This document shows positions 21,426-42,892 of a DNA stretch of 49,853 nucleotides, one piece after another. Location: assembly GCF_016793285.1 (NCBI RefSeq), contig NZ_JAEUMO010000027.1, positions 1 through 49,853 of the forward strand, read 5' to 3'. Position numbers and translations under genes: made by a program. The notes under the pieces were generated by a model. The model worked only from the letters and a program-made list of their open reading frames with translations. It did not search any database and was not told the origin of the DNA. The stretch's first letter is position 1, and every line of letters starts with the position of its first letter. Source of the DNA: Phenylobacterium sp. GTDB lineage: Bacteria > Pseudomonadota > Alphaproteobacteria > Caulobacterales > Caulobacteraceae.

Positions 21426-21857
21426 ATGATCCGCTACGCCCTCATCTGCGACGATGACCACGAGTTCGAGGGCTGGTTCGGCTCGTCCGGCGACTACGAC
21501 GACCAGCAGGCGCGCGGCCTGCTCGAATGTCCGGTCTGCGACTCCAGGGCCGTGCGCAAGCAGATCATGGCGCCCGCCGTCGCCGGCACGAAGCGCACCC
21601 TGCGCGATCCGGGCCCCGCGAAGATGCAGGCGATGATGATGGAGGCCGCCGGCCGCATCCGCGCCCACGTCGAGGAGAACTTCGACGACGTCGGCGACGC
21701 CTTCGCCAGCGAGGCCCGCGCCATCCACGAAGGCCGCGCCGAGGACCGCGGCATCTACGGCCAGGCCTCGCCGAAGGAGGTCCGCGACCTCATCGAGGAC
21801 GGGGTTCCCGTCGCGCCCCTCCCGCCCGAAGCGCCCGCCAAGACCGAGCTCAACTAG
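21426..21857 (+). CDS. DUF1178 family protein
   Basis: A 143-residue protein with the DUF1178 signature: MIRYALICDDDHEFEGWFGS, then LLECPVCDSRAVRKQIMAPA. The CxxC and an upstream Cys suggest a small zinc-ribbon. The C-terminal half is charged, ending PVAPLPPEAPAKTELN. The function of the family is unknown. The grxC, carbon-nitrogen hydrolase, DUF1178 order is a known neighbourhood, here with the middle gene reduced to a remnant. Confidence 0.9.
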   Translation: MIRYALICDDDHEFEGWFGSSGDYDDQQARGLLECPVCDSRAVRKQIMAPAVAGTKRTLRDPGPAKMQAMMMEAAGRIRAHVEENFDDVGDAFASEARAIHEGRAEDRGIYGQASPKEVRDLIEDGVPVAPLPPEAPAKTELN

Positions 21858-23906: not shown

Positions 23907-25820
23907 GTGAAGACCCTGCTCGCCGCCGTTCTTCTCCTGGCCCTGGCCGTGCCCGCCGCCGCCGCGCCGCTGGCGGCCTACGGCAAGCTGCCCTCGATCG
24001 AGCAGGCGACGATCTCGCCCAGCGGCCACGCCGTCGCCGTCGTGGTCACCGACGGCGAGCAGCGCACGGTGGTGGTGAAGGACCTGGCCTCGGGCGCGGT
24101 CACCCTTCGCGGCCTGCTCGGCGACAACAAGATCCGCAGCGTGCAGTGGGCCGGCGACAGGCATCTGGTCGTCGTCGCGTCGGCGACGCTCAACTCCTTC
24201 GACCTGCAGGACGGGTTCCGGGAGTGGTTGTTCGGCAGCACGATCGACCTGGCGACGAAGAAGCTGACGCCGATGATGCGCCGCTCGCAGAAGGCGGACA
24301 TGGCCACGATCTTCGATCTTCCGATCGTGCGGAACTACAAGGGCGAGCCCGCCGTCTTCGTGCAGGGCGTCATCTTCTCGGGCGGCCGCGGACACCTCTC
24401 GCTGTTCCGCATCGACCTGGCGACCGGCGGCGACCGGCTGGTCGCGGAGGGCACGGCGGACACCGTGGACTGGACCGTCGACTCCCAGGGCCAGGTTCTG
24501 GCGGAGGAGACCTACAATCCCGGCTCCGGCGAGTGGGCGCTCAAGGTCCACACGCCGGGCGGCTGGCGCCAGGCCGCCGCGGCGACGGCGAAGATCGACC
24601 GGCCGGTCATGGTCGGTCTCGGCCGCGACGGCGCCTCGGTGATCTACGGCCAGCGCGGCGACGACCGGCGCTGGGTCTGGCGCGAGATCGGGGCGGACGG
24701 GTCGCCGTCGGCCACGGCCATCGGCACGCTCGACAGTGCGAGCCCGATCCGTGCGGCGCTCGACGGCCGGATGATCGGCTACTACGCGCTGGCCGGGAAC
24801 GAGGACCGCTACACCTTCTACGACGCGGCCGACGCCAGGGCGTGGCAGGACATCGTCGCCGCCTACGGGGACGAGCGCGTGAACCTCGAGTCGTGGTCGA
24901 CGGACCGGCGCAGGATCGTCGTGCGGGTGGAGTCCGGGACCGAAGCGCCGCGCTACGCCGTCATCGACCTGGCCCAGCGCAAGGCCGAGTGGCTGGGCGC
25001 TCAGTACTTCGAACTCACGCCCGACGACCTGGCCCCGCGCGAACCGGTGACGTTCAAGGCGGCGGACGGCCTCAGCCTGAGCGGCTACCTCACCCTGCCC
25101 CGGGGCAGGCCGGCGAAGAACCTGCCCCTCATCGTCTTTCCGCACGGCGGCCCCGCGTCGCGCGACACGCCGGGGTTCGACTGGTGGGCCCAGGCGATGG
25201 CGTCGCGGGGCTACGCGGTGTTGCAGGTCAACTTCCGCGGTTCGGAGGGGCTGGGCCCCCGCCTGCTCGAAGCGGGCTTCGGCGAGTGGGGGCGCAAGAT
25301 GCAGACCGACCTCTCGGACGGCGTGCGCCACCTCGCCGGCCAGGGCGTGGTCGACCCCAGGCGCGTCTGCATCGTGGGCGCGAGCTACGGCGGCTATGCC
25401 GCGCTGGCGGGCGCCACGATCGACACCGGCGTCTATCGCTGCGCGGTCTCGGTGGCGGGCGTGGCCGACCTGAAGCGGCAGGTGGCGTGGTCACGGTCGC
25501 GCGGCGGCGCGAGCACGGGGCGCTACTGGAACCGGTTCATGGGCGCCGACACCGGCGAGGAGGACGTCCTGCCCCGCTACTCCCCGGCCGCCCTGGCCGG
25601 CAAGGCCGACGCCCCGATCCTGCTGATCCACGGCAAGGACGACACCGTGGTGCCGCTCGAACAGAGCCGCATCATGGCCGATGCGCTGCGCAAGGCCGGC
25701 AAGCCCGTCGAACTGGTCGTGCAGAAAGGCGCAGACCACTGGCTCTCCCGCGGCGACACCCGCCTGGAGATGCTCACCGCCACCATGGCCTTCGTCGAAA
25801 AGCACAACCCGCCGAACTGA
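23907..25820 (+). CDS. Secreted S9-family peptidase, copy 2
   Basis: A 637-residue paralogue of the preceding gene with the same order: signal peptide ending VPAAAAPLAAYG, propeller, hydrolase domain. The triad is complete: Ser493 in GASYGGYAAL, Asp579 in HGKDDTVVP, and His611 in GADHWLSRG. The HGGPASRDTPGFDWWAQ segment is conserved. GTG at 23907 is the start, seven bases after an AGGAG. Long stretches of the hydrolase half are identical to copy 1 at the nucleotide level, while the propeller halves differ more, a pattern suggesting gene conversion. Confidence 0.93.
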   Translation: MKTLLAAVLLLALAVPAAAAPLAAYGKLPSIEQATISPSGHAVAVVVTDGEQRTVVVKDLASGAVTLRGLLGDNKIRSVQWAGDRHLVVVASATLNSFDLQDGFREWLFGSTIDLATKKLTPMMRRSQKADMATIFDLPIVRNYKGEPAVFVQGVIFSGGRGHLSLFRIDLATGGDRLVAEGTADTVDWTVDSQGQVLAEETYNPGSGEWALKVHTPGGWRQAAAATAKIDRPVMVGLGRDGASVIYGQRGDDRRWVWREIGADGSPSATAIGTLDSASPIRAALDGRMIGYYALAGNEDRYTFYDAADARAWQDIVAAYGDERVNLESWSTDRRRIVVRVESGTEAPRYAVIDLAQRKAEWLGAQYFELTPDDLAPREPVTFKAADGLSLSGYLTLPRGRPAKNLPLIVFPHGGPASRDTPGFDWWAQAMASRGYAVLQVNFRGSEGLGPRLLEAGFGEWGRKMQTDLSDGVRHLAGQGVVDPRRVCIVGASYGGYAALAGATIDTGVYRCAVSVAGVADLKRQVAWSRSRGGASTGRYWNRFMGADTGEEDVLPRYSPAALAGKADAPILLIHGKDDTVVPLEQSRIMADALRKAGKPVELVVQKGADHWLSRGDTRLEMLTATMAFVEKHNPPN

Positions 25821-25825
25821 CGCCG

Positions 25826-27745
25826 ATGACCCGAAGCCTTCGCGCACTGCTCCTCCTGCTGGTCGCGGCGCTCTGCGCGGCGCCGGCGATCTCGGCGCCG
25901 CTGGAGGCCTATGGCCGCCTCCCGACGATCGAGGCGGTCACCGTCTCGCCCGGCGGCGGACGGCTCGCGGTGGTGGTCACGGATGGTGAACAGCGCAGCG
26001 TCGCCGTCCAGGACCTGGCCACGAGGACCTTCATTGCCCGCGCCGCCTTCGGAGACATTCCGGTCCAGGCCGTCCGCTGGGCCGGCGAGGGCCACCTGCT
26101 GATCACCACGGCGGTGAGGTTCGATTCGCCGCGGCTCGGCGGCGGCGCCCAGGACTGGCGGCGCGTGCAGGTGTTCGACGTCGCAGGCCAGAGGCTCCGA
26201 CCGCTGCTGGGCGACGCTGCGGCGGGCCTCAGCCACGTCCTGCGTGCGCCGATGGTGCGAACGATCGACGGGCGTCCCACGGTTTTCATCGAAGGCCTTC
26301 AGCCGGTCGAAGGCCTGGCGCGCGCCGCGGTCTACCGCGTCGACCTTTCGACGGGGAAGGCCGATGTCGTCCAGCCCGCGGTCGCCGACAGCGTGCGCTG
26401 GCTGGTCGATGGCCAGGGCCGGATCGTCGCCCGGCAGATGGCCGACCAGAAGACCCGGCGCGTGAGCATCGAGGTCCGGGCGGGCGACGCGTGGCGCCGG
26501 CTCTACTCGGCGGATGGCGACGACCGCGAGGGCGCCGCTCTGCTCGCGCTGGGCCGCGACGGGGCCTCGGTCGTCTACGTCGAGGAGCGGGCCGATGGGA
26601 CGCGCAACTGGCGCGAGGCTCCGCTCGACGGCGGCGCCGTCCGGACCATCGCGGCGCCGGCGCACCACCGGGCGGCCATCGATCCGCAGAGCGGACGGCT
26701 CCTCGGTCACGCGGGCTGGGACGGCGACGCCTACGACGTCGTCTACTTCGATCCCGCCGACGCCGCCGTCATGCATGGGCTGAAGGCGGCCTATCCCTCG
26801 CTCTTCACCCGCGTCGACTCCTGGTCCGACGACAGGCGGTTCGTAGCGGCGCTGATCGACACGCCCGGCCGGGCCCCCGCCTTCGTGATCTACGACTCCG
26901 TCGCGAAACGCGCCGACTGGATCGGGCCCGAGCATCGCGGTCTGACCGACGCCGACGTGGGCGTTCTCAGCCGGGTTCGCGTCAAGGCGTCCGACGGGCT
27001 CGAGCTCGCGGGATACCTCACGCGCCCGCCGGGCGCGCCGCAGGCGCGCGGGCTGCCCCTCATCGTCCTGCCGCACGATGAGGCCGCCGGGCGCGACACG
27101 CCCGAGTTCTACTGGTTCGCTCAGGGCATGGCCTCGCGCGGCTACGCCGTGCTGCAACTGAACTTCCGGGGGTCCGGCGGGCTCGGCGAGGCGCTGGAAA
27201 GGGCGGGCGACGGGCAGATCGGCCGCCGGATGCAGTCCGACCTCTCGGACGCCGTTCAGTCGCTTGCCGGCAGCGGCCTCATCGACCCCAGGCGGGTCTG
27301 CATCGTCGGCCGGGCCTACGGCGGCTATGCGGCGCTGGCGGGCGTCGCCCTGGAGCCGACGACCTATCGCTGCGCGGTGGCCATCGACGGCCTCTTCGAG
27401 CTGCGCTGGCCCAGGTCGTCGCGACCGTTGTCCGAGGCCGTGCAGGCCGGCGCGCGCCGGCGCCTGGGCGTGGACGGCCCCGACGATCCGCGCCTCGTGC
27501 AGTATTCGCCGGTCAGCCAGGCGGCGTCGGTGCAGGCGCCGGTCCTCCTCATCCATGAGCTGGATGCGCCGGCGTCGGCGCTGGAGGCGGGAGAGACTAT
27601 GGCGGCGGCCCTGCGCAAGGCCGGGAAGCCGGTCGAGTTGCTGGTGCAGCAAGAGGGCGCCAAGGGCCTCACGCGCGCGGCGGCCCGCCTTCAGACGCTC
27701 ACCGCCACCATGGCCTTCGTCGAAAAGCACAACCCGCCGAACTGA
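25826..27745 (+). CDS. Catalytically dead S9-family peptidase paralogue, copy 3
   Basis: A 639-residue third paralogue starting five bases after copy 2. The signal peptide (MTRSLRALLLLLVAALCAAP), propeller and hydrolase fold remain, and the frame is open throughout. Every triad position has changed: Ser to Ala497 (GRAYGGYAAL), Asp to Ala581 (HELDAPASA), and His to Lys613 (EGAKGLTRA). The oxyanion motif HGGPAS has become HDEAAG. The last 16 codons (TMAFVEKHNPPN end) match copy 2 exactly. It is either a pseudopeptidase with a binding or regulatory role or an early-stage degenerate copy; the intact frame over 640 codons argues for selection. Confidence 0.88.
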   Translation: MTRSLRALLLLLVAALCAAPAISAPLEAYGRLPTIEAVTVSPGGGRLAVVVTDGEQRSVAVQDLATRTFIARAAFGDIPVQAVRWAGEGHLLITTAVRFDSPRLGGGAQDWRRVQVFDVAGQRLRPLLGDAAAGLSHVLRAPMVRTIDGRPTVFIEGLQPVEGLARAAVYRVDLSTGKADVVQPAVADSVRWLVDGQGRIVARQMADQKTRRVSIEVRAGDAWRRLYSADGDDREGAALLALGRDGASVVYVEERADGTRNWREAPLDGGAVRTIAAPAHHRAAIDPQSGRLLGHAGWDGDAYDVVYFDPADAAVMHGLKAAYPSLFTRVDSWSDDRRFVAALIDTPGRAPAFVIYDSVAKRADWIGPEHRGLTDADVGVLSRVRVKASDGLELAGYLTRPPGAPQARGLPLIVLPHDEAAGRDTPEFYWFAQGMASRGYAVLQLNFRGSGGLGEALERAGDGQIGRRMQSDLSDAVQSLAGSGLIDPRRVCIVGRAYGGYAALAGVALEPTTYRCAVAIDGLFELRWPRSSRPLSEAVQAGARRRLGVDGPDDPRLVQYSPVSQAASVQAPVLLIHELDAPASALEAGETMAAALRKAGKPVELLVQQEGAKGLTRAAARLQTLTATMAFVEKHNPPN

Positions 27746-27885
27746 CGCCCGCGCGGGTGCGTTGATCGTGGTGAAATCGCGGTCTGCCGGGGGTTGTGTG
27801 ACCTCAATGCCACACTACATCGGGAGGGTCCGCAGGCCGTGCTCATCCGAGGCGGCCGGGGACGATCCGCCATCCGTGGGGACAC

Positions 27886-30471
<2,586 letters not shown>

Positions 30472-33923: not shown

Positions 33924-35435
33924 ATGCGTCGTGTGACTGCTACACATGATGCATCGGAGCAGCCTATGCCACCCGGCCTTATTCGACGCGGCGCACGGTA
34001 CTACATCCGGCGCCGCATCCCTCTCGACCTGATCGAGCACTACCAGACCAGCGCCGTCATGCGGGCGCTCGGAACGTCCGATTTCGCGGAAGCCAAGAAG
34101 CTCGTGATCCGGGCATGGCAGGCTTACGACGACGAATTCGACAGGGTTCGCGTCACGCTGAGCGCGACACCGCAGAAGGTGCCATCGGCGCTCTATGGCT
34201 CCCGTGAGGAGCAAGAGGCCGAAGAGGCTTATCGGCCCCAAGAAGAACAGATGTGGGAAGAAGAGCGGGAGCGGATCGAAGCCGATCCCGTGCTCAAGGC
34301 CAAGTCGCGTCTCGCGAAGGCGATCAACGCCGAAGCGGATCGTGCGGAGCTAGCCGAGCTTGCCCGATGGGGCGATGCGAAGGCTGAGGCCAAGGAGCCT
34401 GACAGCGAGAACCCAACGATCCAGCAGCTTCATGATCGGTGGGTGAAGGATCAGGAGCGCAACCCCTCGACCCTAAAGGGCATGAAGAGGGCGGTGGATC
34501 GCTTCGAAGAGGTGATCGGCAACAAACGCATCAAGGCCGTAGCCCGGCGCGACGCGACCAGTTTCACCGACAAGATGCGGACACCCGGCGTCGTGAGTGA
34601 AGAAGGCGTCAGCATCCCCAACATGAACACGACGCTCTCACTCCTGAGTGCGCTGTTCGGCTTCGCCGTGAAGCGCGATCTCATTGAGACCAACCCCTTC
34701 ACCGGCACGCAGTTGCAGGACAGCCGCAGGGCTAGGGAGAAGCGGCGCGAGTTCGACGCGTCAGCGCTGGCGGCGATCTTTGGGAGCCCGATCTACCGCG
34801 ATGGAGAACGCCCCGTAGGTGGGGCAGGGGAGGCGGCCTACTGGCTTCCGCTATTGGCGCTCTACACTGGCGCTCGGATCAATGAGCTATGCCAGCTTCA
34901 CCCTGACGATGTGACCGAGGAAGGCTACGTCGATCCAAAGGGTAAGAGCCTCAAGGCGTGGGTGATCCGTATTCAGCACGACAGAGCCAAGGGCCAGAGC
35001 GTGAAGACCGAAGGGAGCGAACGCCGCATCCCGGTTCATGCTGACCTGATCAAGCTCGGGTTCGTCCGATACGCTCAAGGCCAACGCGGGAAGGCGCTGC
35101 TGTTCGACAAGCTCACGTACTCGCCTGCTGACGAGAAGCTGTCGGGAAATTGGGGCCGCTGGTGGGGCCGACAGTTGCGCTCAGATTGGGGGGTGACCGA
35201 CGAACGCATGACGTTCCATTCGTTCCGGCACAGCTTCAAGCACTACGCCCGTCAGGCGCTCATTCCCGCTGACGTTCACAACGCTCTGACGGGGCATGAG
35301 ACCCGCAGCGCTGCCGACGCCTACGGCGGGCTGTCGTATCCGCTCTATCCCCTGGTCGAGGGCATGAAGCGGTACAGGGTGCCGGGGTTTGAACTTCCAG
35401 CACCCCCACCGAGCCTGAGGACGAAGGTTAGCTAG
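33924..35435 (+). CDS. Tyrosine recombinase / phage-type integrase
   Basis: A 503-residue site-specific recombinase, the likely integrase for the ilvC att site. The N-terminal LIRRGARYYIRRRIPLDLIE matches the DUF6538-type arm-binding region. A core-binding domain follows (about 180-270), then the catalytic domain with Arg318 (YTGARINELC), His432 and Arg435 (HSFRHSFK), His458 (LTGHET) and Tyr467 (ADAYGG). The pentad is complete, so the enzyme should be active. ATG at 33924 and 33966 both have ribosome-binding sites; the second excludes an 11-bp repeat that may be an arm site. It converges on the next gene, overlapping by 4 bp. Confidence 0.93.
   Translation: MRRVTATHDASEQPMPPGLIRRGARYYIRRRIPLDLIEHYQTSAVMRALGTSDFAEAKKLVIRAWQAYDDEFDRVRVTLSATPQKVPSALYGSREEQEAEEAYRPQEEQMWEEERERIEADPVLKAKSRLAKAINAEADRAELAELARWGDAKAEAKEPDSENPTIQQLHDRWVKDQERNPSTLKGMKRAVDRFEEVIGNKRIKAVARRDATSFTDKMRTPGVVSEEGVSIPNMNTTLSLLSALFGFAVKRDLIETNPFTGTQLQDSRRAREKRREFDASALAAIFGSPIYRDGERPVGGAGEAAYWLPLLALYTGARINELCQLHPDDVTEEGYVDPKGKSLKAWVIRIQHDRAKGQSVKTEGSERRIPVHADLIKLGFVRYAQGQRGKALLFDKLTYSPADEKLSGNWGRWWGRQLRSDWGVTDERMTFHSFRHSFKHYARQALIPADVHNALTGHETRSAADAYGGLSYPLYPLVEGMKRYRVPGFELPAPPPSLRTKVS
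33937..33947 (+). promoter_or_regulatory. Candidate integrase arm-type site (left)
   Basis: CTGCTACACAT lies 62 bases inside the left att repeat. An identical copy in the same orientation lies 61 bases inside the right att repeat (40911-40921). The symmetric spacing suggests integrase arm-binding sites. Confidence 0.4.
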
Positions 35436-36091
35436 GCGTCGCCGTTGGGCACGGCGTTGGCGTGCGGCGCGAGCGTGCTCGACTGATGCGCCGTGCCGCC
35501 ATCGGACCATGCGTTGAGCCGCGATCCGTCGAAGGCGGGGTTCCAGACTTGCTTGTCGGCAACCCGCGCCGTCGTGGAGACCTGGGAACTGTTGAGACCC
35601 ACATTGCTAGGGGCGGGCGCAGCGGCCTGCTGAGACGCAGCCGGTTGCGGACCTGACGCCGTGATGTGCTGATCCGCCATCGCGAAGCCAAGGGCCTGTT
35701 CGGTCGATGCCGCCGTGATGTCGCCGTTGGGAAGCTCGCCGTTCTTCTGTGCGACGACAACGCTATCCCGAGCGATCATCGGACCTAGGGCCGCAATCTC
35801 GCTGTCGTCACCCGTAGCGATGTAGGCGCTCAACGCCGTGTCGTACTTGGCGACGGTCTGGGGATCGCTGGCGTCTACGAGCCGAGTGATCTTGCCGAGG
35901 GAGTCGGCAAAGGCAGGCTGACCTGCAATGAAGTCGTTGAGGGCGCGCTGATAGGCGAGGCGGGGCGGATGCCCTGCGGCCTCGTAGTCCCGAGCCCAAG
36001 AGACCACCGTCTGCGCGTCATAGCCTTGGGCGTAGATGGTGCTCAGGGCGGCGTTGACCTTCACCCGCTGGCGTTGGGTTAGGCGGCTCAC
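35432..36091 (-). CDS. Hypothetical element protein (219 aa)
   Basis: A 219-residue protein I do not recognise. The first 110 residues are probably helical (LTQRQRVKVNAALSTIYAQG, then VVSWARDYEAAGHP). The rest is low in structure, rich in Ala, Gln, Ser and Asn, with a Pro/Ala linker. No signal peptide or enzymatic motif is seen. It is the last gene of a reverse-strand run; its start overlaps the upstream stop by 4 bp (36088-36091), and it overlaps the integrase end. It may be a phage-like accessory or structural protein. Confidence 0.65.
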   Translation of the reverse strand: MSRLTQRQRVKVNAALSTIYAQGYDAQTVVSWARDYEAAGHPPRLAYQRALNDFIAGQPAFADSLGKITRLVDASDPQTVAKYDTALSAYIATGDDSEIAALGPMIARDSVVVAQKNGELPNGDITAASTEQALGFAMADQHITASGPQPAASQQAAAPAPSNVGLNSSQVSTTARVADKQVWNPAFDGSRLNAWSDGGTAHQSSTLAPHANAVPNGDA

Positions 36092-36522
36092 AGCGTCACC
36101 TCACCGGCCAGGATGCGACCGGTCGCCAACCACCTTTGCTGTGCGATCCGCAAGCTGTCGTAGTGGATGGGAGCGCCAGCAGCCTCCCACTCGGCCAGGA
36201 CGGCGAGGGCCACGGTTCGCACCCGGTCCTGTTCTTCCTGATCAAGCTTGGCGTAGGTGTCAGGCCAGAGCCGACCATCGGAACGGGGATGACCAAGCAC
36301 CCTGTTCACGTGGTCGCGGTAGAAGCTCAGTTCCTCGCAGGCCGGTAGTTCGGCCCTTCGGCGAAACTCCGCCGCCTCTCCGCAGCGCAGATGATGCACG
36401 ACGGCCTCGCCATCCGGCTCACAGGCAAGGCGCAGTTCGTCCAGCGTCTTCGCCCACGGCGTCGGCTTCTGGCGGTTCAGTTCCTCTAGCCGCTCTTGCT
36501 TCCTGCTGCGCCGACGCTTCAT
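36088..36522 (-). CDS. Hypothetical element protein (144 aa)
   Basis: A 144-residue, strongly charged protein (start MKRRRSRKQERLEELNRQKP). Three cysteines are present (ACEPDG, LRCGEAAEF, PACEELSF), with a later helical region (EEQDRVRTVALAVLAEWEAAG). The family is unknown. It overlaps both neighbours by 4 bp, so the reverse cluster is tightly coupled. Confidence 0.62.
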   Translation of the reverse strand: MKRRRSRKQERLEELNRQKPTPWAKTLDELRLACEPDGEAVVHHLRCGEAAEFRRRAELPACEELSFYRDHVNRVLGHPRSDGRLWPDTYAKLDQEEQDRVRTVALAVLAEWEAAGAPIHYDSLRIAQQRWLATGRILAGEVTL

Positions 36523-37031
36523 GCCGCCACCGGCCCGCGCAGGTAGCCGCGCCGAAGGCTGATCAGGTATTCGTTGATGGCCTCGTAGGGATCGCCAGGG
36601 GCGAGCGCCATGATCTCCGCAGGGATGCGGTCAGGGTGCTTCTCGACAAGGTACATGAGCGCATCGGACGGCAGGGATTGGATGCCGGGGAAGGTCTGCG
36701 TCGTGTCGGCGGTCTGGTAGCCGTCGAATTGCTTCCGGGTGACGGTCACCGGGAACGCCAGCCTCAGAAGGTGGTCGTCACCTTCCTTGCGGACATGGAT
36801 GTCGGAGAACACAGCGAAGGCTGCATCACGGGCCGACTGCCGTTCTTGCTCCTGTGCGGCGTCTAGCCGGGTCTTAGCCTGAGCAAGATCCGATTGGAGT
36901 TGTCGGACCTTGGCCCGTGCCCCCGTCAGTCGTTCGTGCAGCGCCAGGTCGTCTTGAGCCTGGATAAGATCGTTCGTCAGGTTGGCGACCGTCAGAGCTA
37001 GCGCCCTGCGATCGGTGGTGGTCGTAGTCAA
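36519..37031 (-). CDS. Hypothetical coiled-coil element protein (about 170 aa)
   Basis: A protein of about 170 residues with a predicted coiled coil near residues 25-70 (ARAKVRQLQSDLAQAKTRLD) and a C-terminal globular part (LRLAFPVTVTRKQFDGY, then DALMYLVEKHPDRIPAEIMA). TTG at 37031 is chosen as start: it follows AAAGG at a good distance and leaves a 25-bp gap to the upstream gene, while the longer frame has a low-complexity Arg/Thr extension that is antisense-like. Function is unknown. Confidence 0.6.
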   Translation of the reverse strand: MTTTTTDRRALALTVANLTNDLIQAQDDLALHERLTGARAKVRQLQSDLAQAKTRLDAAQEQERQSARDAAFAVFSDIHVRKEGDDHLLRLAFPVTVTRKQFDGYQTADTTQTFPGIQSLPSDALMYLVEKHPDRIPAEIMALAPGDPYEAINEYLISLRRGYLRGPVAA

Positions 37032-37056
37032 TTCAGCCTTTCTGCTACGGCTACAG

Positions 37057-37335
37057 TTAGCGTTGCGCCCGCTTCTCGCGGAACTTGTTCGGGTCGTAGT
37101 GGTAGACCTTGCGCGGCTTGGGTTGCCGGTTGTCGGCGGCGTACATCGCGGCAATGACCTTGGCCGATGCGGTACGAGGACCGGGCGGCTTCCGCTGCGC
37201 ATAGTCGGGAAGGGGAAGACCCAGGAGTTCTAGGGTCGCTCGCAGGCCGATCATCACCCGACGATCCGCACCTACGAAGTAAAGCTCAGCCTCTCGGCTA
37301 TAGAGAACGTCATCAGCAACAGTGTGTGTCGCCAT
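37057..37335 (-). CDS. Small hypothetical element protein (92 aa)
   Basis: A 92-residue protein with a strong ribosome-binding site (AGGAG, five bases before the ATG at 37335). It is a basic protein ending PRKVYHYDPNKFREKRAQR, with RRVMIGLRATLELLGLPLPD in the middle. It is the first gene of the four-gene reverse cluster, so it should lie nearest the promoter. A DNA-binding or excisionase-type role is possible from size and charge only. Confidence 0.6.
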   Translation of the reverse strand: MATHTVADDVLYSREAELYFVGADRRVMIGLRATLELLGLPLPDYAQRKPPGPRTASAKVIAAMYAADNRQPKPRKVYHYDPNKFREKRAQR

Positions 37336-37547
37336 ACTGCTCCTACTAATGTGAATGGTTGGTCTGTTCAGTCCCAAAATATGAGACTGATGTAGTTAGA
37401 CTTACGGGCGGCCATCCGCCTAGAGAACCAGCTTAGAACTCAGTCGCGGCCTAACAGCGCCTAAGCTATCCGTCGATTTTGCCGTAGACGGATGACTAAG
37501 CTGGTTTTCTAGAGGGATGCTCCCTAGGTAATTCTCGTTATCCCGTT

Positions 37548-37565
37548 GATATATAATCATATATC
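37548..37565. promoter_or_regulatory. A/T-rich palindrome GATATAT-AATC-ATATATC
   Basis: A perfect 7-bp inverted repeat with a 4-base centre. It contains TATAAT (37552-37557) and so overlaps a possible -10 element on the forward strand, 15 bases upstream of the small frame at 37580. It fits a repressor operator or an origin-type unwinding sequence. Confidence 0.45.
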
Positions 37566-37579
37566 ACGAGGTGTTGAGC

Positions 37580-37714
37580 ATGTTGGAGTTTAGCTGGCCG
37601 GGTCCCCCCTACCCCCCGCGATCAGCTTTTCTGACTTTGGCGAATAGCGGCTCCCCGGCTCAACTTCGGCATCACGATGGGATCGCTACGCGGAGCTTGA
37701 GCCAACCGGGCTGA
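37580..37714 (+). CDS. Candidate small ORF (44 aa)
   Basis: An ATG seven bases after GAGGT opens a 44-residue frame (MLEFSWPGPPYPPRS...) ending at TGA 37712-37714. It follows the A/T-rich palindrome with its TATAAT box. Support is limited to the ribosome-binding site and promoter position; composition is ordinary and I recognise no family. Confidence 0.25.
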   Translation: MLEFSWPGPPYPPRSAFLTLANSGSPAQLRHHDGIATRSLSQPG

Positions 37715-37774
37715 CCATGCCGGACAAGCCGACACCCCCTATTGGTCACGTGTTTTTCGTCACCTCTGACGGCA

Positions 37775-37876
37775 TATGCCCGACGGTATCGATATCCGTC
37801 CGGGGACCTGTCCGGTCCTATGCCAGACGGTATCGAAAGCGCGGGTGCCTCGCGGCACTATGCTAGACGGTATCGA
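37775..37876 (+). repeat. Three direct iterons, TATGCYMGACGGTATCGA
   Basis: Copies at 37775-37792, 37819-37836 and 37859-37876 differ at only one or two positions within 18 bp. Their starts are 44 and 40 bp apart, about four helical turns, placing them on the same DNA face. The first copy continues into GATATCCGTC, making a partial palindrome around TATCGATA. Such iterons bind replication initiators, excisionases or partition proteins; no Rep or ParB gene is visible in the element. Confidence 0.75.
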
Positions 37877-38071
37877 AACTGTCCCGGCAGTTAAGTCCTT
37901 GTAATTGCGGGAATCTCCTCGCGTCGGCTCGCGTCGCCGGTATGCCGCAGGCCGTGGAATGCCCCGCTCACACCGAGCCCCAGAGAAGGCCGAGGAAGCC
38001 CCTCAAAGCCAGGGCGCCACTACCCTAGCGGAGCACCCCGCAAGGCCCGCCCACGGCCACGCCTGAGTCTC

Positions 38072-38650
38072 CTAGGCGGTAGCGGCGCAGTACCGTTTCA
38101 CCGTGGCGTCCGACAGGCCGAAGTGCTGGGCTGTCTGCCGGATGCTCGCCCCCTTCTCGCGCCGCCAGGAGACCACCGCAGCGGCGTCCTGAGCCTTCGG
38201 CCTCCCGAGGCTATCCTTCCCCCGGTGCGTCTTCCCGGTGGCCTCCAGCGCAGCCCTAGCCGCCGCTCGGCCCGCCTCCGTCCGCTCCCTGATCTTGTGG
38301 CGCTCCATGTCCGCGACCTGAGCCAGCACGGCTAGGATGATCTCGCCCACGCCCCGCCCGATCTGCCCTAGGCCGTGGATGTCCACCGTGACGCCGCTGT
38401 CGATCAGCTTCCGCACCGTTCCCTGTACGTCCAAGGCATCACGGCCTAGGCGATCCACGGCATAGACGCAGAGCGTGTCGCCCTTGCGCACCTGCTCTAG
38501 CAGCTTGGCGAAGCCGGGCCTGTCCGCAGCGAGCACGCCACCGCTAACGCCCTGGTCCGAGAACTCCTTGTCGAAGGTCCCGCCCATCGCGTGCCGTTGG
38601 GCTTCGATGCTCTGGTCTCCCGTAGAGACCCGGAAGTACGCGATCCGCAT
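38072..38650 (-). CDS. Serine recombinase (resolvase/invertase family)
   Basis: A 192-residue small serine recombinase. The nucleophile is Ser9 in AYFRVSTGDQS. Conserved RPGFAKLLEQVRKGDTL, AVDRLGRDALD and the E-helix region ILAVLAQVADMERHKIRERT follow. The C-terminal helix-turn-helix (GASIRQTAQHFGLSDATVKR) binds DNA. All catalytic Arg positions I can recognise are present. It is preceded by repeated CTAGCTCATAAG boxes, probably its own recombination or operator site. Its presence beside a tyrosine integrase suggests the element is composite or can resolve or invert a segment. Confidence 0.92.
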   Translation of the reverse strand: MRIAYFRVSTGDQSIEAQRHAMGGTFDKEFSDQGVSGGVLAADRPGFAKLLEQVRKGDTLCVYAVDRLGRDALDVQGTVRKLIDSGVTVDIHGLGQIGRGVGEIILAVLAQVADMERHKIRERTEAGRAAARAALEATGKTHRGKDSLGRPKAQDAAAVVSWRREKGASIRQTAQHFGLSDATVKRYCAATA

Positions 38651-38652
38651 GG

Positions 38653-38756
38653 CTAGCTCATAAGTTAGGGTTGCGCTTTCCCTAGCTCATAAGCCTAGCT
38701 CAATGGGCGCGTCAAGTAGGTTGTGAGCCATGGCGCATAACTTAGAACTTATGAGC
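38653..38756. promoter_or_regulatory. Repeated CTAGCTCATAAG boxes upstream of the recombinase
   Basis: CTAGCTCATAAG occurs at 38653-38664 and 38682-38693, a partial CTAGCTCA at 38695-38702, and the inverted CTTATGAGC at 38748-38756. The first copy starts three bases upstream of the recombinase start. Spacing and mixed orientation resemble a res-type site to which a resolvase binds, autoregulating its gene. The 38757-38904 stretch holds no other feature I can support. Confidence 0.6.
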
Positions 38757-38904
38757 GTGGTGCGCGTATCCAATCCGCGCCGTGCTGAGATGCCCGCAGC
38801 CTGTGTGAGCGTGCGTTGAGGCTATTCGATTGGCCTGTTCCGGTACGCGTACCAAGTCAGACTGCTGTTAGTCCGATCCCAGGAGCATTGGAGCCAACAC
38901 CGCC

Positions 38905-39009
38905 ATGATCGTTCTCGACCCGCCCGTCATCCACGCCGTTGCAGCCCTGGTCACCGCATTCGGGGTCGCGACCGCCGCCGTCATCTGGGCGCTCAGGCGG
39001 AAGCCGTGA
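38905..39009 (+). CDS. Small single-span membrane protein (34 aa)
   Basis: A 34-residue frame, MIVLDPPVIHAVAALVTAFG and then VATAAVIWALRRKP: one hydrophobic helix followed by a positive tail (inside-positive). A GGAG lies upstream, though somewhat distant. Its stop overlaps the GTG start of the methyltransferase remnant (GTGA at 39006-39009), the type of coupling seen between real phage genes. It may be a holin-like or accessory phage peptide. Confidence 0.45.
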   Translation: MIVLDPPVIHAVAALVTAFGVATAAVIWALRRKP

Positions 39010-39053
39010 CCATCGATCTGTTTTGTGGTGCAGGCGGACCCGGCATGGGGGTA
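39006..39053 (+). pseudogene. 5' remnant of a C5-cytosine DNA methyltransferase
   Basis: GTG-initiated translation gives VTIDLFCGAGGPGMG, which is motif I of Dcm-type C5-cytosine methyltransferases (DLFxGxGGxSxG, the SAM-binding loop). After about 16 residues the match ends abruptly and the rest of the frame, which is antisense to the next gene, has none of the later motifs (PCQ, ENV, QRRxR). The most likely explanation is a deletion that removed nearly all of a methyltransferase gene and joined its start to the neighbouring module. Confidence 0.6.
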
Positions 39054-39110
39054 ATGCCTGCTACTTTGTTGGATGAAGTCCCCTCGCATGAGTGCAGTGA
39101 TTTTAGGTCG

Positions 39111-39659
39111 CTACCTACAATGCGTCTTCAATATCTCTTCGACCCTCACCTGACATTGAAGCGCAGCAGCAAATACCATGAGCCCCGACTTTGGGCTGTG
39201 GTAGCCGCTAAACATATCCAACCCTTGAGTTTCTTCAAACCATGATTTTCCGACAGCGAAGGCGAGGTAGGAAGATTTAACGTCACTCTTCTCATGAAAT
39301 ATTCTGGCGTAGGCTTCGGCATCATCAAACATCGAAGACCAAATCATCTGCGCGTGATTGTCGCCGATCTCGATATGGTCGAAGCAGGCTACGATCTGAC
39401 TAAACATTGCCTCCCGCCATATCTTCATAAATTCGTTTGGCGACGGTCGAGAGACGTTCGCGCGCTTCAGATAGACATCCGCCCACACCCACGCCGCCGC
39501 CGCATAGAAGCGGATCACCTTAGCTGCTGTCGTTCTATTCGCGGCGAGCCACCGCAGATCATCGTCTTCTGCCGCGCCAGCATTGAAGGCGTCGCGCACC
39601 GCCGCTGTTAGAAGGCCGGCGACCTTCTCTGCGGTTACCTTCGATCCAAAGAGACCCAT
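39111..39659 (-). CDS. Hypothetical protein (182 aa), divergent to the nuclease
   Basis: A 182-residue cytoplasmic protein I do not recognise. It is largely helical with many aromatic residues (VIRFYAAAAWVWADVYLKRA, then EFMKIWREAMFSQIVACFDH). No signal peptide or catalytic motif is evident. Lower GC and different codon use mark it as foreign. It shares a 121-bp divergent promoter region with the nuclease gene at 39781, so it may be part of the same module (for example an immunity, adaptor or sensor protein), but this is inference from position only. Confidence 0.65.
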   Translation of the reverse strand: MGLFGSKVTAEKVAGLLTAAVRDAFNAGAAEDDDLRWLAANRTTAAKVIRFYAAAAWVWADVYLKRANVSRPSPNEFMKIWREAMFSQIVACFDHIEIGDNHAQMIWSSMFDDAEAYARIFHEKSDVKSSYLAFAVGKSWFEETQGLDMFSGYHSPKSGLMVFAAALQCQVRVEEILKTHCR

Positions 39660-39780
39660 CGCTTCCTCAGGCGGGTTTGTCGGCAGCTTTTCTCAAGCCG
39701 ACTAGCTGTGCAATGGGCAGTGGACGGAAAGGCTGAGGCGCCACATTGTTCGCGCTGGACGTGCAAGTTGGGGGGCGGAA

Positions 39781-40881
39781 ATGGATTTGGCGACAAGGCT
39801 CGCTGAGCTTCAAAAGCGTACCGTAGAGCATCGCGAGGTGCTGCTGACCGAGGAAGCCGCGAAGACAGCGCTCGTTATGCCGTTCATCCAGGCCTTGGGG
39901 TACGATGTCTTTAACCCGTCCGAGGTCGTGCCCGAATACATCGCCGATGTTGGCACGAAGAAGGGCGAGAAAGTCGACTACGCAATTTGCGGGGGCGGAA
40001 AAGTCAACGTCCTGATTGAGTGTAAGCCGTCGTCGGTGGAGCTAAACATCAATCATGCCGGACAGTTGTTCCGGTATTTTTCGGTGACGTCAGCCAGACT
40101 GGCAATCTTAACCAATGGCGTCGTGTACCAATTCTATTCGGACATCGAAGTTCCGAACAAGATGGATGACAAGCCATTCTTCACGTTCAGCATGGACGCG
40201 ATCAAGCCGACTGACGTAAAGACGCTGGAGAACTTCGCAAAGGCCAGCTTTGACATTGAGAAGATCGTCAAGGAAGCGGGCAACCTAAAGCTCCAAACTG
40301 TCCTGCGAAAGGAGTTGGAACGAGAATTTGCCGAGCCGTCAGACGAGTTCGTGAAGATGATGGCGCGCCGTGTCTACACCGGCAACGTCACCGCTGCGAT
40401 CAAGGACAACACGGCCAAGCTGCTCGTCAGTACCATTGCGACGATGGTTCGGGATATGGTGACGGATCGCCTGTCCTCCGCGCTGAATGCATCCACGCCG
40501 AAGCCCTCCGAAGCAGCCGGTGAGCCTGCACCGACAGAGGAAGAGATCATTACGACGCAAGAAGAGCTTTCGGGCTTCCATATCGTCCAGGCCATTGCGT
40601 CGAAGCTTGTTCATCCTAAGCGCGTCGTGATGCGAGACCAGAAGTCGTATTGCGCTGTGCTGCTAGATGACAACAATCGAAAGACGATTGCTCGCCTTCA
40701 CTTCAACGCCGCGACCGCAAAATATTTCGGAACGTTCGTGGAGAAGGACGAGACCCGACACCTAATCAGTGACCTCACCGACATCTACCAGCACGCCGCG
40801 AAGATCGAGAAGCGGCTAAAGGAACTGGAAGGGGCGGGGACCAAGGCCGCGAAAGGTGCGCCAGTAGCCGAAGGCGCATAG
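39781..40881 (+). CDS. PD-(D/E)XK restriction endonuclease-like protein (HsdR N-terminal / COG2810 type)
   Basis: A 366-residue protein whose first 170 residues match the type I restriction HsdR-N/type IV predicted endonuclease fold: TEEAAKTALVMPFIQALGYD, FNPSEVVPEY, then Asp66 in KVDYAI and Glu80-x-Lys82 in VNVLIECKPS, which make a complete D..ExK active site. RYFSVTSARLAILTNG and FYSDIE are also conserved. The C-terminal 190 residues include a FHIVQAIASKLVHPKRVVMR segment seen in phage-borne members. There is no helicase motor, so it is not a full HsdR. A nucleic-acid-cutting defence role is plausible but unproven; no intact cognate methyltransferase is present. Confidence 0.82.
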   Translation: MDLATRLAELQKRTVEHREVLLTEEAAKTALVMPFIQALGYDVFNPSEVVPEYIADVGTKKGEKVDYAICGGGKVNVLIECKPSSVELNINHAGQLFRYFSVTSARLAILTNGVVYQFYSDIEVPNKMDDKPFFTFSMDAIKPTDVKTLENFAKASFDIEKIVKEAGNLKLQTVLRKELEREFAEPSDEFVKMMARRVYTGNVTAAIKDNTAKLLVSTIATMVRDMVTDRLSSALNASTPKPSEAAGEPAPTEEEIITTQEELSGFHIVQAIASKLVHPKRVVMRDQKSYCAVLLDDNNRKTIARLHFNAATAKYFGTFVEKDETRHLISDLTDIYQHAAKIEKRLKELEGAGTKAAKGAPVAEGA

Positions 40882-40910
40882 CGTAACGCGCTTTCCAGGC
40901 GCTTCCCACG

Positions 40911-40921
40911 CTGCTACACAT
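40911..40921 (+). promoter_or_regulatory. Candidate integrase arm-type site (right)
   Basis: A second CTGCTACACAT, identical to 33937-33947 and in the same orientation, 61 bases inside the right att repeat. See the left copy for interpretation. Confidence 0.4.
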
Positions 40922-40982
40922 TCGGCCATCACATGCCGCACTTGGTCTCGCCTAAGTAGCTGATTTTCTTGATGTGACCTCC

Positions 40983-41013
40983 AAGAACAAGCTGGTCGAC
41001 ACCGCCCGCAACT
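40983..41013 (+). repeat. attR: displaced original 3' end of ilvC
   Basis: Thirty-one bases beginning AAGAACAAGCTGGT and ending ACCGCCCGCAACT, followed by AG to complete a TAG stop. In frame they still read [10 protein letters not shown]-stop but are detached from any start. GTC and GAC here match core codon preference, whereas the left copy has GTT and GAT. This is presumably the original chromosomal ilvC end. Confidence 0.88.
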
Positions 41014-41040
41014 AGGCGCGGCGCCAGCCTGAACGATCGA

Positions 41041-41070
41041 ACGGCCCGGGCGCGATCCCGGGCCGTTTTT
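41041..41070 (+). terminator. Intrinsic terminator, probably the original ilvC terminator
   Basis: ACGGCCCGGG, loop CGCGAT, CCCGGGCCGT and TTTT: a perfect 10-bp stem with a T-run, 26 bases after the displaced ilvC stop. It is now 7.2 kb downstream of the functional ilvC gene. Confidence 0.85.
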
Positions 41071-41159
41071 CGTCTGGCCCGCCGCCGGCGCGGGCCTGTC
41101 GCCGACTCTGCGCAACCTATGGCTCCGCCGGTCGTTACAGGCTTGACCAGGAGGGCCCC

Positions 41160-41276
41160 ATGCAGACGTTTCGGACCATGTGCAGGTTCCTGCGCCTCGG
41201 CCTGATGGTGGGGCTCGACCTGATCCGCCCCAGCCGCCCGGAGTACCGGCTGCCCGCGCGCTGGCTGGCGCGCTAG
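41160..41276 (+). CDS. Small basic protein (38 aa)
   Basis: MQTFRTMCRFLRLGLMVGLD and then LIRPSRPEYRLPARWLAR, with an ideal AGGAGG ribosome-binding site five bases before the ATG. It has a short hydrophobic helix with Arg on both sides and could sit at the membrane. It overlaps the stop of the convergent FAD protein by 4 bp. No family is recognised, but the ribosome-binding site is strong evidence for translation. Confidence 0.5.
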   Translation: MQTFRTMCRFLRLGLMVGLDLIRPSRPEYRLPARWLAR

Positions 41277-42892
41277 GCCGCCACCGCCTCACCGACGATA
41301 GACCGCGCCACCGCTTCGGCGACCTTGATGCCGTCGACGGCGGCCGAGAGGATGCCGCCCGCGTAGCCGGCGCCCTCGCCGGCCGGGAACAGGCCGCGCA
41401 CGTTCAGGCTCTGGAAGTCGGCGCCGCGGGTGATGCGGATGGGCGCCGAGGTGCGGGTCTCGACGCCGGTCAGCACCGCCTCCGGGTCGTCGTAGCGCGC
41501 GATCCTGCGGCCGAAGACCGGAAGCGCCTCGCGCATCGCCTCGACCGCGTAGTCGGGCATCACCGCGGCCAGGTCGGCAGGCCGCACGCCCGGACGGTAG
41601 CTCGGCGCCACCTGGCCCAGCGCGGTCGACGCGCGCCCGGCCAGGAAGTCGCCGACGAGCTGGCCCGGCGCGTAGTAGTCGCCGCCGCCGGCGACGAACG
41701 CCCGGCTCTCCAGCTCGCGTTGCAGGTCGATGCCGGCCAGCGGATGGTCGCCGGGATAGTCGGCCGGCGTGACGCCCACCACGAAGCCGGCGTTGGCGTT
41801 GCGCTCGTTGCGCGAATACTGGCTCATGCCGTTGGTGACGACGCGGTCCGGCTCCGACGTCGCGGCCACCACCGTCCCGCCCGGGCACATGCAGAAGCTG
41901 TAGACCGTGCGGCCGTTCGCGCAGTGGTGCGAGAGCGAGTAGGCGGCGGCGCCCAGGTCCGGATGGCCGGCGCAGGGGCCCAAGAGGGCGCGGTCGATCC
42001 ACGACTGCGGGTGCTCGATGCGGAAGCCGATCGAGAACGGCTTGGCCTCGATGTGGACGCCGCGGTCGTAGAGCGCCTGGAAGGTGTCGCGCGACGAGTG
42101 GCCAATGGCCAGGACGACGTGGTCGGCCTCCAGGAAATCGCCGGTGTGCAGGCGGACGCCGCGCACGCGGCGGCCGGCGTCGATCTCGATGTCGGCGACG
42201 CGGTGGCGGAAGCGGTACTCGCCGCCCAGGCTCTCGATCCTGGCGCGCATGGCCTCGACCATGGTCACCAGCCGGAAGGTGCCGATGTGGGGGTGGGCCT
42301 CGGTCAGGATCTCGGCCGGCGCGCCGGCGGCCACGAACTCGTTCAGCACCTTGCGGCCCAGGTGCCGCGGATCCTTGATCTGGCTGTAGAGCTTGCCGTC
42401 CGAGAAGGTGCCGGCCCCGCCCTCGCCGAACTGGACGTTGGACTCGGGGTCGAGCTCGCTGCGCCGCCAGAGGCCCCAGGTGTCCTTCGTGCGCTCGCGC
42501 ACCGCCTTGCCGCGGTCGAGGATGATGGGGCGGAAGCCCATCTCCGCCAGGATCAGCCCCGCGAACAGGCCGCAGGGCCCGGCGCCGATCACCACCGGGC
42601 GGAGCGGCAGGGCGGGCGGCGCGGCGGCGACGGGCCTGTAGGCGGTGTCCGGCGTCGGGCGAACGTGCGGGTCGCCGGCGAGGCGGCGGGCGACGTCGGC
42701 CTCGCCCCGGACCTCCACGTCCACGATGTAGACCTTCAGGATCGCGCTCTTCCGGCGCGCGTCGTGCGCCCGCTTCCACACCGACCAGCTCAGCAGGTCG
42801 GCCTCGCCCACGCCCAGGCGCGCCGCGACGGCGGCGGGCAGGGCCTGCGGCGCGTGGTCCAGGGGCAGCTTGAGTTCGGAGACGCGGAGCAT
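41273..42892 (-). CDS. NAD(P)/FAD-dependent oxidoreductase (COG2509-like)
   Basis: A 539-residue flavoprotein. After an N-terminal RNA-binding-like segment (LRVSELKLPLDHAPQALP, then LLSWSVWKRAHDARRK) comes the dinucleotide-binding VVIGAGPCGLFAGLILAEMG and LDRGKAVRERTKDT. Conserved NVQFGEGGAGTFSDGKL and the C-terminal GLFPAGEGAGYAGGILSAA are signatures of the COG2509 uncharacterised FAD-dependent dehydrogenases. The substrate is unknown. The start at 42892 (MLRVSELKL) matches the family; an ATG at 42919 would add nine residues. Confidence 0.9.
   Translation of the reverse strand: MLRVSELKLPLDHAPQALPAAVAARLGVGEADLLSWSVWKRAHDARRKSAILKVYIVDVEVRGEADVARRLAGDPHVRPTPDTAYRPVAAAPPALPLRPVVIGAGPCGLFAGLILAEMGFRPIILDRGKAVRERTKDTWGLWRRSELDPESNVQFGEGGAGTFSDGKLYSQIKDPRHLGRKVLNEFVAAGAPAEILTEAHPHIGTFRLVTMVEAMRARIESLGGEYRFRHRVADIEIDAGRRVRGVRLHTGDFLEADHVVLAIGHSSRDTFQALYDRGVHIEAKPFSIGFRIEHPQSWIDRALLGPCAGHPDLGAAAYSLSHHCANGRTVYSFCMCPGGTVVAATSEPDRVVTNGMSQYSRNERNANAGFVVGVTPADYPGDHPLAGIDLQRELESRAFVAGGGDYYAPGQLVGDFLAGRASTALGQVAPSYRPGVRPADLAAVMPDYAVEAMREALPVFGRRIARYDDPEAVLTGVETRTSAPIRITRGADFQSLNVRGLFPAGEGAGYAGGILSAAVDGIKVAEAVARSIVGEAVAA

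Follow-up and report, generated by a model that had tools for sequence, protein, structure and literature searches.

The window, by which is meant the whole stretch of 49,853 nucleotides that was analysed, carries three S9 family genes (c1, c2 and c3) placed head-to-tail on the forward strand between a gene for a DUF1178 protein and clpB, with 16 bases between c1 and c2 and 5 bases between c2 and c3 (Table 1). A promoter scan, restricted to the sigma-70 type, found nothing. The layout of a DUF1178 gene, one to three S9 genes and clpB is conserved, both neighbours being found in 15 of the 19 fetched loci compared, with one or both missing from the stretch examined in the remaining four. Farther along the window, the G+C content drops from about 0.72 to 0.60-0.64 over positions 33924-42000, starting at an integrase gene (33924-35435, with DUF6538 and Phage_integrase domains) just after ilvC, a gene named by eye. 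A protein with a type I restriction R N-terminus (HSDR_N) is encoded at 39781-40881, and the region is probably an integrated element.

Table 1. Genes of the S9 array, its neighbours and the diagnostic residues of c3 (positions in the window)
Feature	Position	Strand	Remarks
DUF1178 gene	21426..21857	+	conserved on the left flank of the S9 array; PF06676, 172 bits
c1, S9 peptidase, 656 aa	21920..23890	+	triad intact: S512, D598, H630
c2, S9 peptidase, 637 aa, GTG start	23907..25820	+	triad intact: S493, D579, H611
c3, S9 pseudopeptidase, 639 aa	25826..27745	+	third tandem S9 gene
c3 hydrophobic N-terminus, probable Sec signal peptide (by eye)	25826..25897	+	residues 1-24; helix 2-17 in the model
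c3 residues 417-422, HDEAAG	27074..27091	+	aligned to HGGPAS; His-Asp common to the four clade members
c3 Ala497, nucleophile position	27314..27316	+	GRAYGG in place of GASYGG
c3 Ala581, Asp position	27566..27568	+	triad alignment
c3 Lys613, His position	27662..27664	+	triad alignment
clpB	27886..30471	+	conserved on the right flank of the S9 array; ClpB domains

In a first-pass annotation of this DNA, c3 had been described as a copy devoid of the entire catalytic triad and of HGGP, which we take to be the oxyanion element of S9 peptidases. The residue numbers given there for the three copies proved exact, and the replacement of HGGPAS by HDEAAG from residue 417 onwards was confirmed. By domain content, c3 belongs to the family: Pfam Peptidase_S9 (PF00326) scores 99.6 bits, compared with 156.8 for c1, 149.2 for c2 and a cut-off of 22.6, and the predicted model together with Foldseek gives the S9 domain order of an N-terminal beta-propeller followed by an alpha/beta hydrolase. 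The Ser-Asp-His triad and HGGP motif of an active S9 peptidase are both absent from it. Serine-peptidase catalysis by c3 consequently appears very unlikely, because the nucleophile, the general base and the oxyanion motif are all lost. Two narrower assignments were rejected, namely lasso peptide isopeptidase (NF033523), for which c3 scores 52.4 bits with a curated cut-off of 400, and dipeptidyl-peptidase Dpp5 (NF053518), for which c3 and c2 score 31.7 and 77.8 bits with a curated cut-off of 900.

Relatives were searched for in 101 Phenylobacterium genomes, some of them incomplete, at E<=1e-90. The gene family was present in 43 of these genomes and the c3 type in four, which implies that the active enzymes do not generally need c3; in the other 39 genomes with the family no c3-type copy was seen, and incomplete assemblies may hide some. 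The nearest relatives of c3 are those of genomes G085 (53% identity), G074 (50%) and G080 (46%), the last being identical (100%) to NZ_SCTC01000021.1 of Phenylobacterium sp. FW300_bin.35. The four proteins share 46-54% identity with one another, and no stop interrupts any of them. A check for orthologues of c3 with an intact triad returned none, since the three that were found all lack Ser and His, with G/D/W, G/D/R and G/D/D at the triad positions of G085, G074 and G080 respectively. Their nucleophile motifs read GQGYGG, GKGFGG and GEGYGG, and HD replaces HG in all four proteins (HDLPSE, HDGPAD and HDGPWG in G085, G074 and G080, in this order). The loss of the entire triad therefore stands for c3 and fails for its three orthologues, which all keep the triad Asp, c3 being the only one of the four to have lost it.

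A four-row profile of this group was run on 390 genomes of the bacterial family, with three candidates scored per genome, and only the four members, which are the profile's own rows, exceeded 1100 bits, the next match reaching 785.8; outside the bacterial family, the best match in 385 genomes across the class, again with three candidates scored per genome, was 542.8 bits. A careful tree of 54 rows joined the four pseudo genes in one clade with 100/100 support and a stem of 0.48, nested in a 22-row group with c2-like active genes. Support was still 100/100 once four motif blocks were removed (45 rows, nine outlying rows dropped). The pseudo gene closes the S9 array in each of the four genomes, with an active paralogue before it, and in G085 about 2.9 kb lie between it and clpB. 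Judging from the sequences, a third S9 copy is not always dead, because that of genome G011, which has three copies with intact triads, falls outside the pseudo clade and keeps its triad. The genome of the window is a draft of 271 contigs, and an assembly or sequencing artefact was considered; it was rejected since three other genomes carry this clade at this locus, and the differences of c3 are many separate substitutions and not an indel, leaving such an origin with practically no likelihood.

The 3' ends of the copies were also compared. The genes c2 and c3 have 49 identical bases up to the stop codon, plus CGCC beyond it (25772-25824 and 27697-27749), despite a protein identity of only 42-44%. 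Over the last 120 bases, c1 and c2 are 92% identical and copies 1 and 2 of G080 are 93% identical; the active-pseudo pairs of G085 and G074 are without such a 3'-end excess (0.72 and 0.63). By their sequence, the identical ends look like the outcome of local gene conversion between S9 copies.

An intact frame of 639 codons had been put forward at first pass as an argument against random decay. The frame is real, and at about 72% GC it is by itself weak evidence, as long open frames are cheap at this composition; an ORF of 717 aa is open antisense to c3. Neutral simulations starting from c3 with its own base composition (60 runs per identity level) gave a mean of 3.6 stops and a minimum of 1 at 73% identity, and a mean of 5.5 and a minimum of 0 at 54%. 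The case for a pseudoenzyme rests on the orthologues, the open frame being insufficient. The ease with which frames stay open would suit a dying gene, that is, a c3 which has lost catalysis and now drifts with its frame held open by the high GC, and so would the broken S9 copies seen at the same locus in relatives (an in-frame TAG in G031, an in-frame TGA in G063 and fragments in G010; L011, L100 and L103), which indicate that S9 copies do die between DUF1178 and clpB. However, the four genomes that share the c3 type are without stops where neutrality would give 3.6-5.5 per gene, and all four have replaced the Ser, the His and the Gly that follows the motif His.

Selection was assessed with a codon model of the MG94 type, using 9 rows of a 14-row alignment and 615 of its 650 columns. 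For the pseudo clade, omega=1 was rejected (lnL -7687.99 vs -7397.64), and the same was observed for its propeller (-8522.53 vs -8373.74, 149 log units), its hydrolase domain (-5314.95 vs -5165.07, 150 log units) and the c3 tip alone (-14265.87 vs -14247.90, a difference of 18.0). On the other tips, omega=1 was worse by 21.1 log units in G080, by 9.6 in G074 and by only about 2.1 in G085 (-14248.04 vs -14245.96). The stem branch, on which catalysis was presumably lost, gave a penalty of only about 2.0 log units (-14250.47 vs -14248.51), and neutrality is not clearly rejected there. Synonymous sites are saturated, as lengths of 11-20 for the branches fitted to the clade alone show; therefore, the rejection of neutrality is trusted and the omega values are not. 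In the joint tree, omega was 0.14 for pseudo and active genes alike in a fit that had not fully converged. Because the three-class model stopped short of full convergence (-14248.75 vs -14248.51 for one omega), no difference in omega between them is claimed. Pairwise NG86 estimates of dN/dS did not separate the groups, ranging from 0.28 to 0.52 over six pseudo pairs and from 0.17 to 0.50 over six active ones. The pseudo clade is nevertheless evolving faster than the species-matched active copies, with identities of 57-58% vs 72-75% in the hydrolase domain and 40-52% vs 51-61% in the propeller (three pairs each), which is a relaxation.

This faster evolution, together with the stem and the G085 tip, is what a dying gene would also display. 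Decay of c3 was rejected because its orthologues share the defect and because neutrality is rejected both for the clade and at the c3 tip, and we consider it highly improbable. The contrary reading already proposed from the sequence, that of a pseudoenzyme, is supported by the same two results, and the conclusion that c3 is a maintained pseudoenzyme is held with high confidence: purifying selection persists after the loss of catalysis in the clade, in both domains and at the c3 tip, its magnitude being unreliable and the stem and G085 tip marginal.

Residues specific to the clade were sought by comparing its four members with ten active relatives, the resulting counts being uncalibrated against another clade of like depth. 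Each of the four pseudo genes has a change or a gap at 26 alignment positions where the ten active relatives do not vary; these include the nucleophile and the residue preceding it, the His, the Gly that follows the motif His, a RYW..F stretch near 542-546, and K79, R81, T98 and E110 of the propeller (c3 numbering). Conversely, at 19 positions, among them Pro79, Arg191, Tyr307, Asp418 and Ala618, all four carry one residue that no more than one of the ten shares. These changes suggest that substrate binding may have altered along with catalysis. Cysteines 492 and 516, one on either side of the nucleophile elbow, are conserved throughout the 61 aligned sequences. AlphaFold2 run with 61 family sequences returned a c3 model with a strand-rich N part and an alternating C part (pLDDT 92.4, pTM 0.91, from an alignment of mostly active enzymes, which pulls the model toward their fold), and a c2 model with a pLDDT of 93.6 and a pTM of 0.92. 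Foldseek matched the c3 model best, along almost its entire length, with S9 peptidases such as 7c72, 7px8, 8wt1 and 5l8s; some of the solved structures are Ser-to-Ala mutants by their titles. The fold of c3 is predicted to be intact.

The pocket could in principle catalyse another reaction with other residues, for instance by means of the His417-Asp418 pair, which is fixed in the four clade members and whose HD arose separately in another gene of the genus (G016:C264). On the other hand, His417 is invariant anyway across the 61 aligned family members, and domain searches with c3 matched no family beyond S9 and related alpha/beta hydrolases, so that a new enzyme is given little probability.

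Loss of the nucleophile is not confined to the c3 clade. The triad was read in 108 fetched members, a set which does not give an unbiased rate, as the queries included pseudo proteins and fetched loci only were read. ORFs shorter than 560 aa were left out (fragments in G010, G031, G063 and G112), and eight more ORFs with matches below 560 aa were skipped, five of them cut by the locus end with full copies in the set and three being distant S9 genes of the window's own genome (L006-L008). Of the 108 members, 95 have Ser-Asp-His, 12 lack Ser at the nucleophile position and one (G081) is truncated ahead of its His. Outside the c3 clade, Asp stands in place of Ser in G016:C94, with HPGP, in G000:C138:7449-9386 (L004/L154) of the window's own genome, with GMDFGG and with the triad Asp and His kept, and in G021, G022 and G083 (L145, L148 and L156), with GHDFGG and with AGEGP or AGEAP in place of HGGP; Gly is found in G074:C29, in G120:C23 (Gly/Asp/Pro) and in G016:C264 (L153; Gly/Glu/Gln, with HDGP). 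The HDGP and GEGYG of G016:C264 are as in the c3 clade, yet the tree places this gene outside it, and the likeness would have arisen by convergence.

A tree of the members built by a quick method, which flags c3 for odd residue make-up, needs seven nucleophile changes. G000:C138 and G074:C29 both have Met before the nucleophile position and Ala after the motif and may represent one event, so the losses are counted as six or seven. All of them lie within Phenylobacterium; in other genera of the bacterial family, the triad is kept by all 50 genes fetched, which were chosen as those nearest the c3-clade profile and so are not a random sample. The lineage of G021, G022 and G083, at 87-92% identity, had an omega of 0.074 and rejected omega=1 by 220 log units (-3716.95 vs -3496.89), with an omega of 0.108 in four active relatives; it is a second pseudo lineage, younger than that of c3. 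In G021 and G022 its pseudo gene lies upstream of a paralogue whose triad is intact, and in G083 it adjoins an S9 paralogue. We see about an even chance that the secreted S9 peptidases of Phenylobacterium repeatedly turned non-catalytic, with six or seven independent losses, often from Ser to Asp or Gly and twice with HGGP changed to HD.., some under strong purifying selection, and that their scaffold has been recruited time and again as a periplasmic module for binding or regulation, of which c3 is the most degenerate long-lived case.

Regarding its function, c3 would be exported to the periplasm together with c1 and c2, judging by eye from its N-terminus, and would work there without cutting. 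Overall, we have fair confidence that c3 is a maintained secreted S9 pseudopeptidase, whose most likely role, without catalysis, is that of a partner or a binding protein; such a role fits a maintained fold with newly fixed residues. It may join enzymes of the c1/c2 type in an oligomer and tune them, or it may hold a peptide or protein ligand; the loss of propeller residues that are invariant in active relatives argues against the binding of the same substrate. The place of c3 in the array speaks for a partnership with active S9 enzymes. Its scattered distribution (four of 43) and an active neighbour of another lineage in G074, which groups with G100/G008 and not with c2 in the 54-row tree, argue against an obligate complex, and action through the active operon partners is put forward tentatively, at somewhat under even odds. 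A doubtful alternative is that c3 stands alone as a periplasmic binding or scaffold protein whose propeller-hydrolase cleft receives a new ligand, leaving c1 and c2 untouched. The changes in both propeller and triad and the 19 clade-specific residues would agree with this, as would the absence of a second adjoining S9 gene, among the matches listed, in five of the seven nucleophile-loss groups, and inactive animal homologues (DPP6 and DPP10) act on ion channels (PMC4350108 and PMC4873792). Against it, an active paralogue immediately precedes each of the four clade members in the same array. Whether as partner or as binding protein, c3 illustrates that automatic 'S9 family peptidase' labels can mislead.

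Among known proteins, the best sequence and structure matches of c3 are active S9 acylaminoacyl peptidases and carboxypeptidases of bacteria, archaea and mammals (8wt1, 5l8s, 7c72 and 7px8, for example), which have its fold and domain order. As a family these enzymes carry the Ser-Asp-His triad, which c3 does not. The inactive S9B homologues DPP6 (DPPX) and DPP10 (DPPY) resemble the c3 clade in combining a propeller and an alpha/beta hydrolase of family S9 with a replaced nucleophile and with changes at residues beyond it. According to PMC4350108, the nucleophile is Asp in DPP6 and Gly in DPP10 (GKGYGG), and DPP10 keeps His759 and Asp727; the orthologues of c3 have motifs like that of DPP10, and other members of the genus have changed Ser to Asp as in DPP6. 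This paper and PMC4873792 describe an S9 scaffold that serves without catalysis and whose activity is not restored when the Ser is put back. Unlike c3, which is bacterial and, by its N-terminus as judged by eye, presumably secreted, DPP6 and DPP10 are type II membrane-anchored animal proteins that bind Kv4 channels, partners that a bacterium would not be expected to offer, and unlike DPP10, c3 has lost all three triad residues. A BEM46-like pseudopeptidase of Trypanosoma brucei, S9-like and without predicted active-site residues as is c3, appears in PMC4376731 as a bioinformatic listing; it is eukaryotic and is likened to c3 by annotation alone.

A model for an inactive paralogue working beside an active one is provided by the bacterial M16B pairs SPH2681/SPH2682 and TTHA1264/TTHA1265, which, according to PMC12731061, are paralogous heterodimers where just one of the two chains has the zinc motif, the latter pair being encoded by neighbouring genes. 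The differences are that M16B is an unrelated metallopeptidase family, that the pair makes an active enzyme, and that genes of the c1/c2 type usually occur without c3. Two surveys bear on prokaryotes: the triad was highly conserved in all subtypes of prokaryotic prolyl oligopeptidases in 2014 (PMC4522959), and in 2008, of 966 serine proteases from five prokaryotic families, which may or may not include S9, 42 were counted as putatively inactive homologues (PMC2605481). No bacterial S9 pseudoenzyme was described among the matches listed in the open-access literature, at the level of titles and abstract openings. Taken together, inactive S9 homologues are a known kind, best known as DPP6 and DPP10 in animals, and what appears new, among the matches listed, is a bacterial clade that is kept in tandem arrays beside active paralogues and has one member without any triad residue, as well as repeated nucleophile losses in one genus. 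A single bacterial genus holds a long-lived pseudopeptidase at a fixed locus, with active paralogues adjoining, plus several independent losses, and the function of a non-cutting S9 scaffold becomes a testable question in bacteria.
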